This document shows positions 27,460 through 37,202 of a stretch of DNA of 64,000 nucleotides, one piece after another. The DNA comes from Rickettsiales bacterium. Lineage in GTDB: Bacteria > Pseudomonadota > Alphaproteobacteria > UBA8366. Positions within the stretch are counted from its first letter, which is position 1, and each line of letters opens with the position of its first letter. Made by a program: the position numbers and the translations under genes. Under the pieces are notes generated by a model. The model did no database searches, was not told the DNA's origin, and saw nothing but the letters and a program-made list of their open reading frames with translations. Location: the NCBI GenBank assembly GCA_002724555.1, contig PBOZ01000073.1:1-64000 (forward strand), read 5' to 3'.

Positions 27460-29628
27460 TCATCCGGCGTTAGATTCGACCTGTCCTAAGTTTTTGAAGA
27501 TCAGGCGAAATAAAATTTGGCTTTCCGGCTGTATATCGGCATCGCGTGTAAAGCTGCGTATGGCGACTGATTCGAATGTAAAGCATTCGTCTGAATACCG
27601 AGCTCGGAGAGAATGTCGAAGAGAACCACCATCCTTTGTTAAATCTCGATGCGTGCCGATGGATGCAGACCAATACTGATTGATCTGGGAGCTAAAGGAA
27701 GTGACCAGTTCCTCTCTTCCCTCTGTATTAACAGTTGTGCTTCCCTCTTCAAAAAATAAATATTCACCATTCAATTTGAATGCAGTGGGTCCAAACGAAA
27801 ATCCGATCGAGCTGCTTTTATTGCTGAAATTAGATTCAGCAAATTTGAATCGATATAAGATATCGGTGTATTCGTTTGGCTTTATATCAATACGACCAAC
27901 GTAATCCGTAAAATCCGTCTCAAGAAGTTTTGAAGATGTTAGGTCGCGATCTTTGCTAAGGCGGTAGCTTTGCCCAACAAAGCCAGTAATATTGCCGGAA
28001 TTTGGGCCATACAAACCAAATTTAGCTCCGTAAATGATGCGAGAACCGCTATCAACGCTATCCAGGCCCGCAAACCGGTTTATACTCAGAAGATTCGTGT
28101 CATCGAGTTCAAAAACAGTTCCTTCTTCATCTGGAATATTGGAAGAATTCGATCCATTTGGCGCTAGAATTCCGATAGCGATAGGCTCGATGACTTGCTT
28201 CAAACCAGCAGAAACCCTGGCGAAAGGAAGACGGGCATCAATTGCAAGACGTGGTAATAGTCTTCCTTCGAAAGCGTTATCTTTCGTACCATCCGATTTA
28301 ACGATATCTCTCAGCCAGTAACCGTCAGATTGGACTGTTGCTGCGGCGTTGGTCACGAGGCCCGTGTTCCAAGTACGTCCAATTGCGTAACCGGGTGTAA
28401 TTGAAACTCTCTGTGAATCCGTTCCATTGTCTCGGAATAGAGCCCTGAAATTTCCATCTAATTGCCATCGGCCGCCAAACCGGTCGGCCTCTCCCATATG
28501 GTTGAAATCAATTATCGGAGCGACAACTGGTTGATCTTCAGTTGTACCTGTTCGCAGGTCTTGGAACCAATAGGCGTTAGCTGCGATATAATTTCGTTGG
28601 CGAAATCCTTCGACCATGACATTTGAACGAAGAGTGTTTGGGTTAAGTTTGAAAAAATTGAACTTTCTTAAGTAGGTTCTATCGCTCGCCATCATCGTGT
28701 CGAAACTACTACGCCACGTATCATCTAAGTGATACTCACCGTCAATTGTAATGTGTCCGCGGACTCTATCATTCTTAATCGTTGAATTATCAGGATCGCC
28801 TTCGTTGCGCTGTGCTTCTGCAATACTCCCCGAGATGGCAACCTTCCCGTTTACCAATCTTTGGCGATAATTTCCGCTTAGAACCAGGCCTTCATCTTTG
28901 GTGTATATTGGGGTAATGGTGGCATCCCTTTCGTCACCCATGGTGATAAAGTAGGGAAGGCGAATAAAAGCGCCTACGTCACTGCTTGTGCCGAAACTCG
29001 GAGCTAAGAATCCTGATTTTCGATCTACGGTGGGGTCGGGGTGGGAGAGGTAGGGCGCATAAGCGATCGGGAATCCCCACATTTCCAGAAAAACGTCTTT
29101 ATAGCGAATTTCACGGTCTTTTTGGCTGTGATCTATTCGTTCAGCCTTCAATTGCCAGAGAGGAGGCTTTTCCGGCTCTTTCTCGCAAAGGTCGCACGGC
29201 GAATATAATGCCCGATACATTTGTATTTTGTTGCCATCTCGGCGGACAGCCGAATTAGCAGCAAAACGACTTTTGTCTTCAAGAAGAATTTGGATCCGAT
29301 CAATTATGCCATTCTTTAATTCCTCCGTCAGTTCGACAAACTCGGCGAAGATGACTTGGCCGGAGGGCTCATGCAGTATGATATTACCAGACGCGCTAAC
29401 AGTGTCTGTTTTTTGATTATAGCTAACTGTATTTGCGAGGAGCGTTCGTTTACCCTGAGTGATTTCGACTTTTCCTTTGGCGATGACGGTTCCCAACTCA
29501 TCGTCGTAGTTTATTTCGTCGGCAAATATCAAAACCGGTAAATCGTTGGACAATTTTTCGCGCCCAATTGCCGTCTGCGTCAGAATTATGGCGATAACGA
29601 ATGTCGCAATGAATGAGAGGCGCACCAT
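27460..29628 (-). CDS. lptD: LPS-assembly protein LptD
   Basis: Outer-membrane translocon that inserts LPS into the outer leaflet, 722 residues. An N-terminal signal (LSFIATFVIAIILTQTAIG) is followed by an OstA/LptA-like periplasmic domain (LIFADEINYDDELGTVIAKGKVEI) and then a large beta-barrel with many alternating strands, beginning near WGFPIAYAPYLSHPDPTVDRK. Cysteines appear in SPCDLCE and near the C-terminus in ECFTFE, fitting the disulfides of LptD. It overlaps lptG by one base. Confidence 0.95.
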   Translation of the reverse strand: MVRLSFIATFVIAIILTQTAIGREKLSNDLPVLIFADEINYDDELGTVIAKGKVEITQGKRTLLANTVSYNQKTDTVSASGNIILHEPSGQVIFAEFVELTEELKNGIIDRIQILLEDKSRFAANSAVRRDGNKIQMYRALYSPCDLCEKEPEKPPLWQLKAERIDHSQKDREIRYKDVFLEMWGFPIAYAPYLSHPDPTVDRKSGFLAPSFGTSSDVGAFIRLPYFITMGDERDATITPIYTKDEGLVLSGNYRQRLVNGKVAISGSIAEAQRNEGDPDNSTIKNDRVRGHITIDGEYHLDDTWRSSFDTMMASDRTYLRKFNFFKLNPNTLRSNVMVEGFRQRNYIAANAYWFQDLRTGTTEDQPVVAPIIDFNHMGEADRFGGRWQLDGNFRALFRDNGTDSQRVSITPGYAIGRTWNTGLVTNAAATVQSDGYWLRDIVKSDGTKDNAFEGRLLPRLAIDARLPFARVSAGLKQVIEPIAIGILAPNGSNSSNIPDEEGTVFELDDTNLLSINRFAGLDSVDSGSRIIYGAKFGLYGPNSGNITGFVGQSYRLSKDRDLTSSKLLETDFTDYVGRIDIKPNEYTDILYRFKFAESNFSNKSSSIGFSFGPTAFKLNGEYLFFEEGSTTVNTEGREELVTSFSSQINQYWSASIGTHRDLTKDGGSLRHSLRARYSDECFTFESVAIRSFTRDADIQPESQILFRLIFKNLGQVESNAG

Positions 29629-30722
29629 TACCCGTCCTCAAGATGAAGCAACAGCGCCAAGCCTATCATCATGCTGACACCAGCAGGTGTCCATGCGGCT
29701 AGTTGTGTTGGCACATTCGTTGATAATCCTAATGCATAGACCACGTCGCCCAAAACATAGAGTAAAAAACTTATAGCGATGCCGCCAATCAACGCGAGGA
29801 ATGTGCCGGAGCGTCGGTTTATGCGGACAGTGAACGCGGCAGCAATCAAAACCATTGCACACAATAAGATTGGCAAAGCGATTAACGAATGTAAATGCAA
29901 GCGATGTCGATGCCCGGAAAATCCTGAAGCTTCCAATTCTTCGATAAAATTCGGTAGGTCCCAAAAAGACATTGTTTCGGGAGAAGCGAAACTCTCTTGA
30001 ATTTTTGTAACTGTCAAATCTGATGGAAGCTCGTATTTTGCAATTTTCTGAGCTGCGCGATTTGGTGTTGAGATCCAGCCGTCTCTTATGTCCCAATAAC
30101 CAATTTTGAGCTGTGCTGTTTCGGCATCTATACGGCCTACAAACTTGTCGCTGCCTTCAAACATAAAGACTATTATATCATGAAGTTTCATTTCTGCTTG
30201 TGAGACACGGAGTGCATGAATAACAGCTTGTCCACCGCTATCGGATTGGCGCAACCAAAGGCCATTCCTCGACACTGCGAGCATGCTCGTTGTGCGTTTC
30301 AAGTATTTGGCTTCTATGCTTTCGAATTTTGATAGCATGACGGCGGAAAATGGATTGAAAATTGTGATTTGAAAAATTCCTACGGCGAGAGTGCAGATAA
30401 TTGCTGGAAACAAAAACTGCCAGATCGAAACACCGGCAGACCTTGAGACAACGATTTCATTCCCATTTGCTAAACGCCAGAATGCAAACATTGCGCCGAA
30501 TAGAACGGTAAATGGCAAAATAGTCTCTGCAAGATGTGGCAATTTAAACAAACTCATCTGCAGGATGATAGCCATTGTTGCGTCTTCCTTTCCGGACGCT
30601 CGGCGCATCATCTCAACGAGATCGAACAGGAGCGCGATCCCCATGAGAATGCAAAAAACACTTGTCAGCCAGAATGCAAACTGGCGACCAAGATATGCGG
30701 ACAAGGTGAGCGACAGTCGCAC
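29628..30722 (-). CDS. lptG: LPS export ABC transporter permease LptG
   Basis: Inner-membrane permease of the LptB2FG complex that extracts LPS, 364 residues, YjgP/YjgQ family. Six helices are seen: three N-terminal (AFWLTSVFCILMGIALLF first), a periplasmic jellyroll domain in the middle, and three C-terminal. The start is GTG 30722, with GAGGTAATTGG upstream. LptF normally sits directly upstream in the same operon, but here it is 5.4 kb away because a plus-strand cassette lies between, so lptG must have its own promoter in 30723-31160. Confidence 0.93.
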   Translation of the reverse strand: MRLSLTLSAYLGRQFAFWLTSVFCILMGIALLFDLVEMMRRASGKEDATMAIILQMSLFKLPHLAETILPFTVLFGAMFAFWRLANGNEIVVSRSAGVSIWQFLFPAIICTLAVGIFQITIFNPFSAVMLSKFESIEAKYLKRTTSMLAVSRNGLWLRQSDSGGQAVIHALRVSQAEMKLHDIIVFMFEGSDKFVGRIDAETAQLKIGYWDIRDGWISTPNRAAQKIAKYELPSDLTVTKIQESFASPETMSFWDLPNFIEELEASGFSGHRHRLHLHSLIALPILLCAMVLIAAAFTVRINRRSGTFLALIGGIAISFLLYVLGDVVYALGLSTNVPTQLAAWTPAGVSMMIGLALLLHLEDG

Positions 30723-31160
30723 CCAATTACCTCGGCACTTGTGGTTGCTGCGGTTTTTTAAGGCCGCAAGCGATTTAGCTTCAATTCAGCAGGGATTGGG
30801 TAGTCGTTAATGAACCTCTCGATTGAATACCTGAAAACAGTATCCGATCGTAAGAGCTAATTCATCAAAGTTGCAGCCTACTATTGTTAATTAGGTTTGC
30901 AAAAAATCTTTGAAATTTACCGCACGCAATTACGCAACGGTTATAGGTCTTTTTCTACCCGTGCCCTGGCTTTTTCTTATTGAACACAGTAATAGACCGG
31001 AACGCTATGACTTTAAAAGTCTTTTTCGTTTCTTGTAACCTACACTTAATGAATCAAGAATGATTTTATCGACTTGTACCGGAACTGATGGCTCTTATCC
31101 GATTATTACTTTGAAGTTATTTTTTGCCGGCTGCGGAACAGGACGGGTTAGCAGTTAGTT
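30723..31160. other. 438-base divergent intergenic region between lptG and the UbiA-like gene
   Basis: AT-rich, non-coding. It must hold the promoter for lptG-lptD-surA-pdxA-rsmA on the minus strand and for the cassette on the plus strand. I see no perfect promoter pair, no repeat longer than a few bases and no site-specific recombination site. Small frames here are shadows of lptG or lack start sites. It is the left edge of the inserted cassette. Confidence 0.5.
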
Positions 31161-32024
31161 ATGAGTTTGAGCGCGATAATAAAGTTGCTCCGGCCGCTGC
31201 AATGGGTGAAAAATATTTTTGTATTCGCTCCATTGTTTTTCAGCCCTGATTTGTCGCGTGACGGTTCATTTGCAGACGTGACTTTGATGTTCTTCGCATT
31301 TTGTTTCGTTGCGAGCGGTCTATACTGTCTTAATGACTTTAGCGACCGTGACGCTGATAAACAGCATCCGGAGAAATGCAATCGTCCGGTCGCCTCGGGC
31401 GATGTTTCTGGCGGTTTGGCCATTGCACTATTTTTTATTCTTTGTGGAATGGGGCTTGTTATCGGGATCGGATGTACGAATGGCGGCTGGGTTCTGGCCA
31501 GTTATTGCATTCTTACCATATTATATTCGTTTCTTTTGAAGAAGTTAGCGGTCATCGACGTCTTAACAATAGCGCTGGGATTTGTATTGCGAGTGTATGC
31601 TGGCGCGCTTGCGGCGAGTGTCCAGCCAACGGTTTGGATCCTCGTTTGTACTGGTATGCTCGCTCTTTTTATAGCGCTAACCAAGCGCCGTGACGATCTG
31701 TCTCAAGAGTTAAGTAGTGATCACCGTGCAAGCCTTGGAGGATATTCGATAGCGTTTTTAGAAGCTTCATTCGTAATGGTTTCGACGGCTCTGGTCGTAT
31801 CTTATGTGGTGTTTACGACAGATGCGGATGCAATGCGCCGCTTGGGTAGTGAGAACCTTTACCTAACTATACCGTTCGTCGTCGGCGGCACGCTTCGCCA
31901 CTTACAATTAACACTTGTCTACCGCCGGTCCGGCTCTCCGACTGAGTTGGCTACCCGTGATCCAGGCCTTTTGGTTTCCTTTTTTGGTTGGTTAATGACC
32001 TTTGCATATTTGATATATGCGTGA
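31161..32024 (+). CDS. UbiA-family prenyltransferase, likely decaprenyl-phosphate phosphoribosyltransferase
   Basis: Polytopic UbiA-superfamily enzyme of 287 residues with about eight to nine helices. The metal-binding aspartate motif is N58-D59 with Asp62 and Asp66 (CLNDFSDRDADKQHPEK), followed by NRPVASGDVS. This HP-K-RP-A-G pattern fits the Rv3806c/NoeC branch, which transfers phosphoribose from PRPP onto polyprenyl phosphate, rather than UbiA of ubiquinone synthesis. The two following genes (DprE1- and DprE2-like) support this: the three steps make polyprenyl-phospho-arabinose. The phosphatase that removes the 5-phosphate is not in the cassette. Function is inferred from family and context. 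Confidence 0.82.
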   Translation: MSLSAIIKLLRPLQWVKNIFVFAPLFFSPDLSRDGSFADVTLMFFAFCFVASGLYCLNDFSDRDADKQHPEKCNRPVASGDVSGGLAIALFFILCGMGLVIGIGCTNGGWVLASYCILTILYSFLLKKLAVIDVLTIALGFVLRVYAGALAASVQPTVWILVCTGMLALFIALTKRRDDLSQELSSDHRASLGGYSIAFLEASFVMVSTALVVSYVVFTTDADAMRRLGSENLYLTIPFVVGGTLRHLQLTLVYRRSGSPTELATRDPGLLVSFFGWLMTFAYLIYA

Positions 32025-32037
32025 GTACAGGACTGTT

Positions 32038-33375
32038 ATGAAGCCCAAAGAGCTAACCATTACTTCCTGGGGCCGGAGTCGAAGTGCCGAGATGACTGCG
32101 TTTCGGCCGGAACGTTTGTCGGCGGTCATTAATGCAATTAGAGAGCAAAGCGAAGACACTCGGATTATCGCGTGTGGTGATGGCCGAAACTATGGCGATT
32201 TGGGAATGCGTCAAAAAGGTCGGGCAATTTTGTCAAGACGCATGGATCGGTTTTTGTCATTTGATGAAAGGAGCGGCGTGGTTGCTGTGGAACCCGGTAT
32301 TACTTTCGCGGAATTATATGCGTTCACTTCTGCTCGGGGATTTTTACCTCCCGTTGTGCCAGGTACTGGCTTCGTGACGCTTGGTGGTGGGGTTGCTAGT
32401 GATATCCACGGGAAAAACCACGATAACCAAGGTTGTTTGGGTGAACACATCGAGTGGCTAGATCTAATTTTGGCAAGCGGCGAACTCGTCCGTGCCACTC
32501 GCACAGAACACTCTGAATTATTTTCCGCTACTATCGGTGGTTGTGGTTTCACTGGGGTGATCTCCGCAATTGGTCTTAAGCTTCAAAAGTTGCGAGCAAA
32601 CGCGGTTCGCGTCCGTGAATGGCGGGTAAAAGACCTAGACCAATTTATTGACTTAATGCAGGAGCACCGCAAATCTGCCGCATATACAGTCGGTTGGGTC
32701 GATGCCCTGCAAGGAGGACGAATGCTTGGCCGTGGTATATTCCAGGCGGCGGAACCTGTCTTAGTCGATTGGCACAGAACGCGGCGGATCCCTTGCAGTA
32801 TACCTTTTACCTGCCCTGATGTTACATTGAACCGATATTCGGTACGCGCATTCAACGCAATTTACTATCGCCGTGTCCCGATCAAGGGAAGGGAGAGAAT
32901 ACTTGGTTATGAAGCATTTCATCACCCATTAGATAAGGTTTTGAATTGGAACCGTCTTTACGGGAAAAAGGGGTTTTTACAATTTCAGTGCGTCCTTCCT
33001 GATGAATCTGCCCGAATTGGAATCCGGCAAATGCTGGAACGAATTTCAAATGCTCGGGCGGCTTCTTTTCTCGGTGTATTGAAAACTTTTGGGAAAGAAG
33101 GTTTGGGTGACCTGTCTTTTCCGAGGTCTGGCGTAACGCTTAGTTTGGATATCCCGGCGCGCGACGGAGGGTACGAATTGGTCAAGTGTTTGGATGCCAT
33201 GACTCTCGATCATGGCGGCCGCGTATATTTGGCAAAAGATGTGACGCTGACGGCAGAACGTTTTGTGTTGATGTATCCGAAATTAGATAAATTCCGCGAA
33301 ACTTTATCACGATATGATCCCACTGGTGTTTTTGACTCCGACCTAGCGCAGCGCCTGAAGATTCGAACGAGGTAA
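32038..33375 (+). CDS. DprE1-like FAD-dependent decaprenylphosphoryl-ribose oxidase
   Basis: FAD-linked oxidase of the VAO/DprE1 family, 445 residues from ATG 32038 (AGGA five bases upstream; an ATG at 32017 overlapping the previous gene is the alternative). It oxidises the 2'-OH of polyprenylphosphoryl-ribose. The FAD-binding sequences GDGRNYGDLGM and SDIHGKNHDNQG (with the DprE1 histidine) are clear, as are FHHPLDKVLNWNRLYG, FLGVLKTFG and YLAKDVTLTAE (with the active-site lysine). At the position of the mycobacterial Cys387 (ICVDFPI), this protein has serine (LSLDIPA). It overlaps or abuts the upstream gene and is followed three bases later by the reductase gene. Confidence in the family is high. 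Confidence 0.92.
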   Translation: MKPKELTITSWGRSRSAEMTAFRPERLSAVINAIREQSEDTRIIACGDGRNYGDLGMRQKGRAILSRRMDRFLSFDERSGVVAVEPGITFAELYAFTSARGFLPPVVPGTGFVTLGGGVASDIHGKNHDNQGCLGEHIEWLDLILASGELVRATRTEHSELFSATIGGCGFTGVISAIGLKLQKLRANAVRVREWRVKDLDQFIDLMQEHRKSAAYTVGWVDALQGGRMLGRGIFQAAEPVLVDWHRTRRIPCSIPFTCPDVTLNRYSVRAFNAIYYRRVPIKGRERILGYEAFHHPLDKVLNWNRLYGKKGFLQFQCVLPDESARIGIRQMLERISNARAASFLGVLKTFGKEGLGDLSFPRSGVTLSLDIPARDGGYELVKCLDAMTLDHGGRVYLAKDVTLTAERFVLMYPKLDKFRETLSRYDPTGVFDSDLAQRLKIRTR

Positions 33376-33377
33376 TA

Positions 33378-34130
33378 GTGACAACTGGAAAGGCCATCAA
33401 GACGTGGGTCATACTTGGCGCTTCTTCATCTATTGGAAGAGCGTTCGCCCGTGCCGCTGCCGCTTTGGGAGCAAACGTTTTACTTGCTGGCCGAGACAAC
33501 GAAGATCTGGAAAGAATTGCCGGAGATATTTCGACACAGTTTAGCGTTAGCGCGAATTGCGCAAGCTTTGATGCTTTAGATGTTCATTCTCACGAAAAAT
33601 TGCGCGATTCATTAGCCTTTTGTGACGGCCCGATCGGTGTATTTCTTTTGTTTGGCTTTATGCCGGATCAGATAGAAATTGACGTCGACCATAAATTGGG
33701 GCGGCAAACCATCGATGTGAACTATACTGGGGCAGTATCTATTTTGTCTCATTTGGCGCCAGTGCTAGAAAAGAATCCTGGATCGCGCGTGGTTGTTTTG
33801 ACTTCGGTATCTGGTGACCGGGGGCGTCTCAAGAACTATGTCTATGGTTCCGCCAAGGCAGGTTTAAACGTGTATCTGCAAGGTTTGCGGGCTAGGCTCT
33901 GGCGAGCTGGTTCCCATGTCGCAACGGTCAAGGCGGGATTTATTGATACAGACATGACCTTCGGCATGCCTGGAATGTTTTTGGTGGCGACGCCCACAGC
34001 ATGCGCTGAAGCCTGTCTGTCGCTTGCTTGTAAAGGCCGGGAAATTTCTTATTTCCCGTGGTTTTGGCGGTACATTATGTTGATTATTAGGATGATCCCT
34101 GAGTGTATCTTCAAGAAGATGAGTATTTAG
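33378..34130 (+). CDS. DprE2-like SDR, 2-keto-pentofuranosyl reductase
   Basis: SDR of 250 residues, predicted to reduce the 2-keto intermediate made by the DprE1-like enzyme to polyprenylphosphoryl-D-arabinofuranose. The cofactor motif GASSSIG is at residues 14-20, and YxxxK is Tyr156-Lys160 (YGSAKAGLNVY). The C-terminal part has a hydrophobic helix (WRYIMLIIRMIP) fitting membrane association. The start is GTG 33378 with gagg upstream. The tight link to the DprE1-like gene (three bases) is as in mycobacteria. The substrate is inferred from that link. Confidence 0.85.
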   Translation: MTTGKAIKTWVILGASSSIGRAFARAAAALGANVLLAGRDNEDLERIAGDISTQFSVSANCASFDALDVHSHEKLRDSLAFCDGPIGVFLLFGFMPDQIEIDVDHKLGRQTIDVNYTGAVSILSHLAPVLEKNPGSRVVVLTSVSGDRGRLKNYVYGSAKAGLNVYLQGLRARLWRAGSHVATVKAGFIDTDMTFGMPGMFLVATPTACAEACLSLACKGREISYFPWFWRYIMLIIRMIPECIFKKMSI

Positions 34131-34191
34131 TATCAAATTCCGTGAATTCGCCAACAATTGAAATAAAGCACATTTGGACTGGAGCCAATGC

Positions 34192-36078
34192 GTGTTGGCA
34201 TTAGTTGAATATTTTTTGCCGGAACCCAGTCAATGGCTGGGCTTGGCTTCAGTTCTCGCTTCACTTTGTCTTTTTTCTGGATTGGGGCGTATCTATGGCG
34301 TTGCCCAGGATCTCCCTGGCGTATCTGTTCTGTTGGGATGGAGTGTCTTAGCTGCTGTATTAACCATCTCTAATGTCTTCGGCGGTTGGTTCTTCATGCC
34401 TGTATTTGGGTGCCTTAGCGTGATCGGCATCGGAATGCTAATTTGGAATAGACACGCGCTGTTGTCTGAAGCCATATCAATGCGAGCGATCTTTGTTCTG
34501 GGGCTTCCGCTTATACTAATCATCGCGGCAAAAGCACCATCGGAAGTCGACAGTTTCACGCATTGGTTGCCCAACGGCCTGTTTATTTGGGAGAACGATC
34601 AATTTATCCGTTCGCAAGGACCAGCGGGCCAGTCAGTCTACCCAGGGTTCCCGTACAACGTCACTTTTCTCTTTTACGTTGTCAGTCGCATCGCTGGCGA
34701 GTTTGTTGAGAACGCTATTGTACAATTTAATGTAATTTTTTTGCTGTTATTCGCCGCGCTGCTTGGCGGACTTTTGCGCAGACCCGACAGTGCAGACGCG
34801 TCTAACACTTGGAGACTCGGCGCGTTTTTGATCCTGGTTGCGACGTTGTTAAACCCAGTTTTCGTTCGACGCATCTGGTTGACATCTTATCCGGACATGG
34901 CAACCTCGGTCGTCGTCGCATATGCAGGAATCGCTGCTTGGGTTTGGATACAATCCGCCGCAAATCCCAATGCGGCAGAGCGAGGGCGGGCAATTACATT
35001 TGCGCTATTGTTGGCGTTACTGGTCAATATAAAACAAGCTAACCTTGTTTTAGTGGTTGCGTTACTCGTTTCTACTGGGATGGTTGCAATCCGTGACCGG
35101 GAAATACAATTCAGCTTCTATGTGAAACGGCTGCCAATATTAATAGGCATGCCGCTTGTCGCGTATCTCACATGGCGGTATTACCTAATTGTAATTTCAC
35201 CGTTAGCTGAAAACAAAATCTCGGCGATTAGCGACTGGCCAATTGACCGCCTGCCAGAACTTCTGCGCTATATGGGCGTTGTCGTTTACCGAAAAGCGCT
35301 CTATTTCGCCCTATCAATAGGCTTTGTGATTTGGGGCTTCCGTTGCTGGATTAAACGGTCGACGTCGCCATTTGATCGATTGGCCATCATCGTCGGTTCG
35401 ACTTTCTTTGGATACAATCTTTTTCTCTTTCTTATTTTCATCGTTCATTTCGGTGGATATCCCCAATCTTATTGGCGCTTCAATACACATGTTGGTTATT
35501 TGATAATGGCAGCGACGGTCTTCGGGTTTGGTCGGCTTTATCGTTATAACCGAGAGAAAATTAGGATCTTGGATGGGTCTTTTATTTCCCGAATAGGTAT
35601 ACTGCTTATTATCGCTGTTCTCGTCCTTCAGATAGCGACAACGAATTACTGGCGTTACGACCTGGAAGTGCCTAAACCGATGCTGCGGGATGTCGGCCGG
35701 GAACTCTCCAAAACGCTGCCTCAAAACGCTACCATCGGCTTAATCGTGCCCGGTGATCAAGGAAACTTTACTTCCATGTTTAAGCATTACGTCGGGCAAT
35801 CGCGGGCCGACTTGAAGGCAGCGCCGATAAATAACGATGCAGAATTATTGGGCTTTATGGCGTCTGCCGGAAGCGGGCCTACGTACATTTGGTCATATTG
35901 TCCGGCCGAATGGATTAGTCGACGCCTTGGCACACAAGTGATGCCCGGAAGCGCAGCGCTTTTGTTACGGAACGAGGACGGGTGGTCAGTAATTCAATAT
36001 TGGCCGCATCGAAAGCTCGTTGGCCTAGTCAAAGCTTACAAGCACTTTGATATTTCGAAGTGTACTGGGAACAGTTAG
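34192..36078 (+). CDS. Large polytopic membrane protein, candidate GT-C glycosyltransferase
   Basis: 628 residues from GTG 34192 (GGAG 34181-34184 upstream; TTG 34174 is an alternative start). About 11-12 hydrophobic segments lie in the first ~500 residues, with an acidic loop motif after the fourth (APSEVDSFTHWLPNGLFIW) that resembles the catalytic Asp/Glu loop of GT-C enzymes, and a soluble C-terminal domain of about 120 residues. I recognise no exact family. Its place directly after the three arabinose-donor genes suggests a glycosyltransferase using polyprenyl-phospho-arabinose as donor; this is inference only. Alternatives are an unrelated O-unit processing or oligosaccharyl-type protein. 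Its stop is 11 bases from the convergent lptF stop. Confidence 0.65.
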   Translation: MLALVEYFLPEPSQWLGLASVLASLCLFSGLGRIYGVAQDLPGVSVLLGWSVLAAVLTISNVFGGWFFMPVFGCLSVIGIGMLIWNRHALLSEAISMRAIFVLGLPLILIIAAKAPSEVDSFTHWLPNGLFIWENDQFIRSQGPAGQSVYPGFPYNVTFLFYVVSRIAGEFVENAIVQFNVIFLLLFAALLGGLLRRPDSADASNTWRLGAFLILVATLLNPVFVRRIWLTSYPDMATSVVVAYAGIAAWVWIQSAANPNAAERGRAITFALLLALLVNIKQANLVLVVALLVSTGMVAIRDREIQFSFYVKRLPILIGMPLVAYLTWRYYLIVISPLAENKISAISDWPIDRLPELLRYMGVVVYRKALYFALSIGFVIWGFRCWIKRSTSPFDRLAIIVGSTFFGYNLFLFLIFIVHFGGYPQSYWRFNTHVGYLIMAATVFGFGRLYRYNREKIRILDGSFISRIGILLIIAVLVLQIATTNYWRYDLEVPKPMLRDVGRELSKTLPQNATIGLIVPGDQGNFTSMFKHYVGQSRADLKAAPINNDAELLGFMASAGSGPTYIWSYCPAEWISRRLGTQVMPGSAALLLRNEDGWSVIQYWPHRKLVGLVKAYKHFDISKCTGNS

Positions 36079-36089
36079 TCAATATCAGA

Positions 36090-37202
36090 CTATTTATTTG
36101 CACGCCGGCCCAACCAGGTTCGATTCAGTTTTCTGGGCCACAGGATGTAACAGAAGGAGATTAGAAATGGTAAAATAACGCCAGCATACATCATGTATAT
36201 CATAACCGGTTGCTTGACGGCTAAACTTCGGGTGCCGAGACTTGCGATTAGAATAATTGCAGTCAGACCGATTGCTTTGAGAATATCTATTGCTTGTCCT
36301 CTCCGACTGTAGGAGCCCGTTAGCAAAACTGCGAGGGCGACTGCAGCACAGGTGATAGGTAACAGTGGTTGGACAATACGGCTATGGCCTTCCGCCAAAA
36401 GATCTGCGAAATTTGGTTCGCCCGGGCGGGTATCCGTTGGATCGAATAATTCGTTTAGATATCGTTCCCGAGGCTCTCGCCAACGATTCGCGTGTTCACC
36501 CGCTGTTCCCCCTATATCCAGTGTTGTTTGGTCGAATAACAACATCGAAAACGTACCGCGTGTTCTATCTACTTGTTGCCTGTTACCATTTACCAGGACG
36601 GCCCGTGGTCCATCATCTGTAGTGACCAAAGCGCCGCGTTGCGCCAGCCAGGTTTGCGGTTTATCGACATTTCTATTATCGTGAAGCATAATGCCACGGA
36701 GCTCTTGGTTTGCGCCTCGTTTGTGCACAAAGACGGTAACACCCGGTGCAATTGCGTTAAATGAACCTTCTTGCAGTAATACAGTTCCAAATTGATGCCG
36801 AATCAAAAATTCCTGATCTTTAAACTCACGGTATGATGTGGGCAAAAGATATAGCGTCAATACAGTCATGATGATCGATATGATGCCACCGACGACAAGT
36901 CCTGGCTTTGCCAAAGAATAATTACTCATGCCTGCGGTTCGCATGACGACGAGCTCGCTATCGGTTTGCAGTCGGTAATACGCGAAGAGGATTGTCGCAA
37001 TTGTCGCTATTGGTAGCAAAATCAGAAGCAATCTCGGTAGAATGAGCATGCTCATGTAGAGAAACAGACCGAAATTTAGCCCTCTGTTTATAATAAAGTC
37101 GAGCAAGGTTGATGCTTTCGCCAACCAAAATATCATGCATAAAATTGTTGTCGAAATTAGTGTGATTAACAGAAGCTGTTTCGTGATGTAGCGAAAGAGC
37201 AT
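36090..37202 (-). CDS. lptF: LPS export ABC transporter permease LptF
   Basis: Inner-membrane partner of LptG in LPS extraction, 370 residues, YjgP/YjgQ family. Six helices flank a periplasmic domain; the first is LLLITLISTTILCMIFWLA. Its conserved FAYYRLQTDSELVVMRTAGMS, the family signature, is near residues 70-90. The usual downstream gene lptG is displaced to 29628-30722. It is divergent from pepA, a common arrangement in alphaproteobacteria. Confidence 0.93.
   Translation of the reverse strand: MLFRYITKQLLLITLISTTILCMIFWLAKASTLLDFIINRGLNFGLFLYMSMLILPRLLLILLPIATIATILFAYYRLQTDSELVVMRTAGMSNYSLAKPGLVVGGIISIIMTVLTLYLLPTSYREFKDQEFLIRHQFGTVLLQEGSFNAIAPGVTVFVHKRGANQELRGIMLHDNRNVDKPQTWLAQRGALVTTDDGPRAVLVNGNRQQVDRTRGTFSMLLFDQTTLDIGGTAGEHANRWREPRERYLNELFDPTDTRPGEPNFADLLAEGHSRIVQPLLPITCAAVALAVLLTGSYSRRGQAIDILKAIGLTAIILIASLGTRSLAVKQPVMIYMMYAGVILPFLISFCYILWPRKLNRTWLGRRANK

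Follow-up and report, generated by a model that had tools for sequence, protein, structure and literature searches.

In mycobacteria, decaprenyl-phospho-arabinose is formed by a pathway that includes Rv3806c, DprE1 (Rv3790) and DprE2. Related genes, noeC and its neighbours, are used by an alphaproteobacterium, Azorhizobium, for arabinosylation of its Nod factor. Kelly et al. (2024) described three-component systems for extracytoplasmic pentofuranose modification, consisting of a PPPRS, a MATE flippase and a GT-C glycosyltransferase of family GT136 (PMC11127046). Such systems are known for the O antigen of Citrobacter youngae O1/O2, and DprE1/E2 are predicted in the Araf versions (PMC11127046). 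The type IV pilin of Pseudomonas paraeruginosa is glycosylated with D-arabinofuranose by TfpW (PMC12369383). The parts of the open-licence literature covered by our search contain no description of a donor module without phosphatase and flippase that is combined with an unclassified candidate transferase and resides in an lpt locus.

The window, which here means the whole stretch of 64,000 nucleotides that was analysed, belongs to an alphaproteobacterial MAG of 2.56 Mb that is 65% complete. Its nearest named relative is PAZH01000020.1, a contig of a 'Rhodospirillaceae' MAG, and further relatives are, by title, from marine (Tara) samples. As the first-pass annotation had stated, four plus-strand ORFs at 31161-36078 are flanked by minus-strand lptG and lptF. 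They are tightly packed, with an 8-nt overlap followed by gaps of 2 nt and 43 nt. Both flanking genes encode LPS export permeases: lptG (29628-30722) scores 264.8 bits with TIGR04408, above the cut-off of 240, and lptF (36090-37202) matches LptF_LptG at 3.7e-60 and TIGR04407 at 224.9 bits, slightly below the cut-off of 230. Beyond lptG lie lptD, surA, pdxA and ksgA, and beyond lptF lies pepA-holC; these surroundings are the usual alphaproteobacterial lpt neighbourhood. An Rfam search of the window gave no match.

The first gene of the cassette (31161-32024, plus strand) encodes an Rv3806c-like polyprenyl-phosphate phosphoribosyltransferase of UbiA fold (Pfam UbiA 2.6e-21). The protein scores 231.7 bits with the NCBIfam DPPR synthase model (PRK12324, NF008977) and 39 bits with the 4-hydroxybenzoate prenyltransferase model (ubiA_proteo). 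Because the former value falls just short of the equivalog cut-off of 234 bits, the product is by its score Rv3806c-like rather than an equivalog. Its length is within the DPPR synthase range, its score is far above those of other UbiA families, and its PDB matches are to Rv3806c only (8j8j, phmmer E=1.6e-27). The motifs NDxxDxxxD and HPxKxxRPVASG are present. With the PRPP-site residues of Rv3806c reported in PMC10994848 as reference, nine of the ten PRPP/Mg residues are identical (R22, K28, Y70, N73, D77, K87, R90, Y138 and K143), and Q135, Y157 and K208 are replaced by Thr, Phe and Ala, respectively.

The second gene (32017-33375, plus strand) encodes a DprE1-like FAD oxidase with an FAD-binding domain and an ALO-type C-terminus (PDB DprE1 1e-67). 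It reaches 363.5 bits with NF053785, below the curated equivalog cut-off of 500. The DprE1 residues H132, K134, K367, Q336 and K418 are kept, while Y314 is replaced and C387 is a Ser. The Cys387 position carries Ser or Ala in all 15 aligned relatives, which we take to predict insensitivity to benzothiazinones. Homologues of DprE1 in which the Cys targeted by benzothiazinones is Ser or Ala would serve as natural reference enzymes. The third gene (33378-34130, plus strand), adjoining the DprE1 gene, encodes a DprE2-like reductase of the SDR fold (adh_short 3.9e-24) with GASSSIG and the catalytic YxxxK. It scores 160.3 bits with the DprE2 model NF053786, below the 250-bit cut-off, and its best NCBIfam match is the general SDR model PRK07102 (236 bits).

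By profile and residue comparison, the three enzymes are homologous to Rv3806c, DprE1 and DprE2 at scores below the curated equivalog limits, and are probably isofunctional with them. The families named in the first-pass annotation were recovered by the NCBIfam and PDB matches, with active-site residues largely kept; the fourth protein matched no GT-C family. That annotation had itself raised a COQ2-type or chlorophyll-synthase UbiA protein as the finding that would count against it. A quinone or chlorophyll prenyltransferase is ruled out by the 231.7-bit DPPR synthase score against 39, and the 8j8j match and the PRPP-binding residues agree with this. Between the window and its relative G001, omega is about 0.08-0.09 for the UbiA-like and fourth genes; for DprE1 and DprE2, dS is saturated and dN is 0.18. 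The cassette genes are under purifying selection.

The scores below the equivalog cut-offs, the preference of the reductase for the general SDR model, and the replacement of Q135, K208 and Y157 of Rv3806c and of C387 and Y314 of DprE1 would also fit a trio whose product is a different polyprenyl-phosphate pentose (plain ribofuranose or some other epimer), with DprE1 and DprE2 having diverged. We regard this as highly improbable. DprE1 and DprE2 lie side by side in nearly all examined cassettes, the catalytic residues of both are present, and ribose needs no oxidase-reductase pair.

We looked for the cassette in 44 genomes of the order and compared the lpt locus between families, with genera g1-g4 representing the window's family (f1). 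The premise that lptF and lptG are normally adjacent held for families f2, f3 and f4 as well as for other orders, with mostly some tens of nt between the two genes in f2, f3 and the other orders. In f1 the two genes are separated in every genus examined. The gap holds the cassette and the fourth gene in g1 (the window and G001; in G002 the contig stops inside the cassette), the cassette without the fourth gene in g2 (G003 and G007), and the fourth gene without the cassette in g3 (G004 and G008; degenerate in G010). The copy in G010 (L189 1860-3664) is a pseudogene with several stops. In g4 (G005 and G009) the gap is 640 nt long and holds no gene, and a search of this gap for a gene remnant found none. 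In f4 the cassette adjoins lptF on the pepA side in seven of seven genomes, and lptF and lptG are adjacent in all five that show both genes. The arrangement is neither chance nor mis-assembly, since it recurs in G001, in G002 up to the end of the contig and, minus the fourth gene, in G003 and G007.

Within the order the cassette occurs in 3/3 genomes of g1, 2/2 of g2 and 7/7 of f4, and elsewhere in none; one f3 genome carries a distant UbiA relative. All 12 of these cassettes are at lptF, and no lpt gene is close to any of the ten or so that were examined in other orders. In the DprE1 tree the copies of the order form one clade (95/94) with subclades for f1 (97/89) and f4 (100/100). The simplest history is a single arrival in the order followed by vertical descent, with losses in g3, g4 and f2; in either f1 or f4 the cassette would also have changed sides relative to lptF. 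A plain inversion does not account for this shift, as it would have reversed the gene direction. A relocation of lptF from an unrelated source was rejected, as the LptF of f1 groups with those of f2 and f3. The split of lptF and lptG is common to the whole of f1, as far as g1-g4 were examined, and is not recent. The earlier proposal that an inserted cassette splits the operon stands as far as position goes, with the cassette sitting between the two genes. A recent insertion is ruled out by the comparison of loci, the distribution in the order and the DprE1 tree, the cassette being fixed in the genus, shared by a sister genus and found on the other side of lptF in f4.

In a genome of another family, G114 (L211 10844-15213), the cassette follows a purN-purM-pgsA-hdaA-SDR block, which in the window is about 11 kb from lptF. 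The cassette may have inserted a second time within this broader neighbourhood, or the insertion may have shifted.

The intergenic region that separates the cassette from the divergently oriented lptG (30723-31160) gives blastn matches to G001 and g4, and no sigma-70 consensus promoter was found in it. Blastn and an alignment of nine relatives show in it, upstream of lptG, a noncoding block with partial conservation across f1, including the cassette-less g4. On account of this conservation, the block is probably a control region belonging to lptG itself.

The fourth gene (34174-36078, plus strand) encodes a polytopic membrane protein, TM4, which from its conservation, hydropathy, lpt linkage and gene neighbours is a candidate GT-C-like glycosyltransferase. 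It is 634 aa long from a TTG start; the previously reported 628 residues apply to a later start. TM4 had no match in Pfam or NCBIfam, its family profile gave nothing significant against the PDB, and hhalign against two neighbouring GT-C-type families was negative. A full-length AlphaFold2 model from five sequences was unusable (pLDDT 46). The C-terminal soluble domain modelled alone reached pLDDT 77, and this model gave nothing significant against the PDB. Over 19 TM4 relatives, D126 is the sole invariant acidic residue, in a long loop predicted from hydropathy to be outside, that is periplasmic; S432 and R435 are invariant in another loop. The predicted topology fits an acidic residue placed in a loop on the outside.

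TM4 relatives were found in 22 of the genomes searched. Eleven of these have TM4 at lpt loci, in five families and three slots, a linkage far above chance because the lptFG stretch makes up less than one percent of a 4-Mb genome. In f1 TM4 lies between lptG and lptF, and in G099 (two copies), G103, G252, G341 and G418 between lptF and pepA. The relative in G348 (L147 8153-9943) lies between surA and lptG, the usual position of lptD; the lptD of this genome is on a different contig (G348:C4). The TM4 tree requires at least five changes in the linkage to lpt.

The gap between lptF and pepA holds other genes in some relatives. In f2 there is a GT2 gene (L106 7944-8699, L107 2992-3747, L109 2411-3166 and L110 7846-8603) that by eye resembles LPS-core transferases of the WaaE/KdtX type; the copy in G023 (L110) is split into two frames. 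Also by eye, the gap encodes an MBOAT-type acyltransferase and a second gene in G030 (L119 2510-5012), and a GT2 and an asparagine-synthase-like gene in G059 (L115 5027-8053).

AglJ-like polyprenyl-phosphate hexose synthases adjoin TM4 relatives in G252, G418, G341 and G332, DPMS-GtrA fusions do so in G099 and G379, and a second polytopic, candidate GT-C gene in G103, G366, G287 and G099. Neighbours of this kind and the position of D126 are what is expected of a GT-C transferase using polyprenyl-phosphate sugars, the GT-C fold of TM4 itself being putative. TM4 is likely a GT-C-like glycosyltransferase acting on LPS. Its use of arabinose we only infer, because TM4 is also found without the cassette. 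The near-complete genomes of g3 have TM4 at lptG/lptF and encode neither DPPR synthase nor DprE1, so that TM4 in g3 needs no arabinose. TM4 is separable from the cassette, and elsewhere it may be a glycosyltransferase that works with other donors.

The AglJ-like and DPMS-type synthases beside TM4 in these six genomes, and its presence alone at the same site in g3, raise the possibility that TM4 modifies LPS with a different polyprenyl-phosphate sugar, e.g. a hexose, and has no more than its site in common with the arabinose cassette. This is unlikely in our judgement, since in g1 TM4 starts 43 nt after DprE2 in the same direction and no hexose synthase is close by, an arrangement conserved in G001, and GT-C enzymes can take different pentofuranose donors (PMC11127046).

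We suggest the following scheme for the window, to which we give about even credence: the cassette would make polyprenyl-phospho-D-arabinofuranose, which after flipping would be transferred by TM4 to lipooligosaccharide before extraction by LptB2FG. In brief, the product of the first gene would combine PRPP and undecaprenyl phosphate to polyprenyl-phosphoribose. A housekeeping phosphatase encoded outside the cassette, DprE1 and DprE2 would then yield polyprenyl-phospho-arabinofuranose. A flippase encoded elsewhere would turn the lipid to the periplasm, and TM4 would move the pentofuranose onto lipooligosaccharide just before LptB2FG extracts it. What the sequences could test were enzyme homology, active-site conservation, operon structure, lpt linkage and selection. 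The first steps draw on homology and residue conservation; the identity of the product, the phosphatase, the flippase, the GT-C fold and donor of TM4 and the LPS acceptor are putative. No match to the Wzy_C/O-antigen-ligase family was found in two f4 genomes, which fits, weakly, a short LOS acceptor there.

TM4 as the only user of the cassette is counted against by g2 and f4, because they have the cassette without TM4. The same genomes fit a different use of the donor, in which polyprenyl-phospho-arabinofuranose is made but is used by another GT-C enzyme for an exopolysaccharide, pilin or glycoprotein, and the lpt flank is a tolerant site that collects glycan genes. The g2 genomes hold other GT-C genes (PMT_2, about seven each), the cargo between lptF and pepA in relatives (f2, G030 and G059) is unrelated, and the cassettes outside the order are away from lpt genes. 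However, the cargo at the lptF flank is repeatedly glycan-modifying and not random, the cassettes of the order stay at lptF through two families, and in g1 cassette and TM4 form one operon. We find use elsewhere somewhat doubtful.

Returning to TM4 as a transferase acting at LPS export, a broader proposal can be put forward tentatively. TM4 may found a new GT-C family of Alphaproteobacteria that is dedicated to LPS/LOS and acts together with the Lpt exporter. The junction lptG-lptF-pepA would then be a plug-in site at which lineages exchange donor modules (the arabinofuranose cassette or hexose synthases), changing the exported glycolipid.

Neither a linked phosphatase nor a flippase is among the cassette genes, and no MATE flippase was found among the called genes of the window. 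A YbhN-type flippase is encoded within the cassette of G078, G095, G114 and G388. In alphaproteobacteria other than the window's, a YbhN/TIGR00374 flippase-like gene between those of DPPR synthase and DprE1 is seen at L043 8823-9809, L041 7538-8515, L046 8876-9796 and L185 6672-7601. It is a candidate flippase for the polyprenyl-phosphate pentose. As a general partner of the cassette it was rejected, with the family absent from the two f4 genomes tested and not at the lpt locus in f1. The UbiA-type gene of G388 (L185 5102-6604) is apparently fused to an N-terminal HAD-like domain with a DMDGT motif, possibly the missing phosphatase. Polytopic proteins adjoin the cassettes of G071 (L044 5075-6661) and G272 (L188 2021-3628) and are possible arabinosyltransferases. 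The one in G071 has a weak match to LA_3751-type putative glycosyltransferases and, by eye, a DDSYIFFRYA motif, which we take to be that of AftB.

If the proposed scheme is true, marine alphaproteobacteria would carry on their surface D-arabinofuranose, a sugar known best from the walls of mycobacteria, and a transferase family without a name would add it where LPS is exported. The genes at the lptF flank, which recur and are exchangeable, would then offer an easy way to find LPS-decoration genes in the genomes of uncultured bacteria. The most interesting part is the lpt-linked TM4 family, and the loci suggest that related bacteria have a surface decoration encoded at one recurring chromosomal position, though by different parts.

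The window cassette is best read as a variant of the extracytoplasmic pentofuranose-modification systems, placed in an lpt locus and equipped with an unclassified candidate transferase family. With the mycobacterial pathway it shares the same three enzyme families in one operon, with active-site residues largely kept. It differs in the lack of a linked phosphatase (Rv3807c type) or exporter, in the Ser for Cys387 of DprE1, in distant sequences (phmmer E=1.6e-27 and 1e-67), and in its place in a Gram-negative lpt locus with no Emb/Aft-type transferase beside it. The noeC system of Azorhizobium differs in serving a symbiotic signal and in its unrelated location. The Citrobacter youngae O1/O2 systems resemble the window in having a UbiA-type polyprenyl-phosphoribose synthase, epimerising enzymes and a polytopic candidate transferase. 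In contrast to them, the window cassette has neither a MATE flippase nor a fused phosphatase domain and sits in the LPS export locus, not in an O-antigen locus; TM4 matches no Pfam family or solved structure. The TfpW transferase of Pseudomonas paraeruginosa is pilin-linked and encoded on a separate genomic island with no lpt linkage, but that system shares with the window the same donor pathway in a Gram-negative bacterium.
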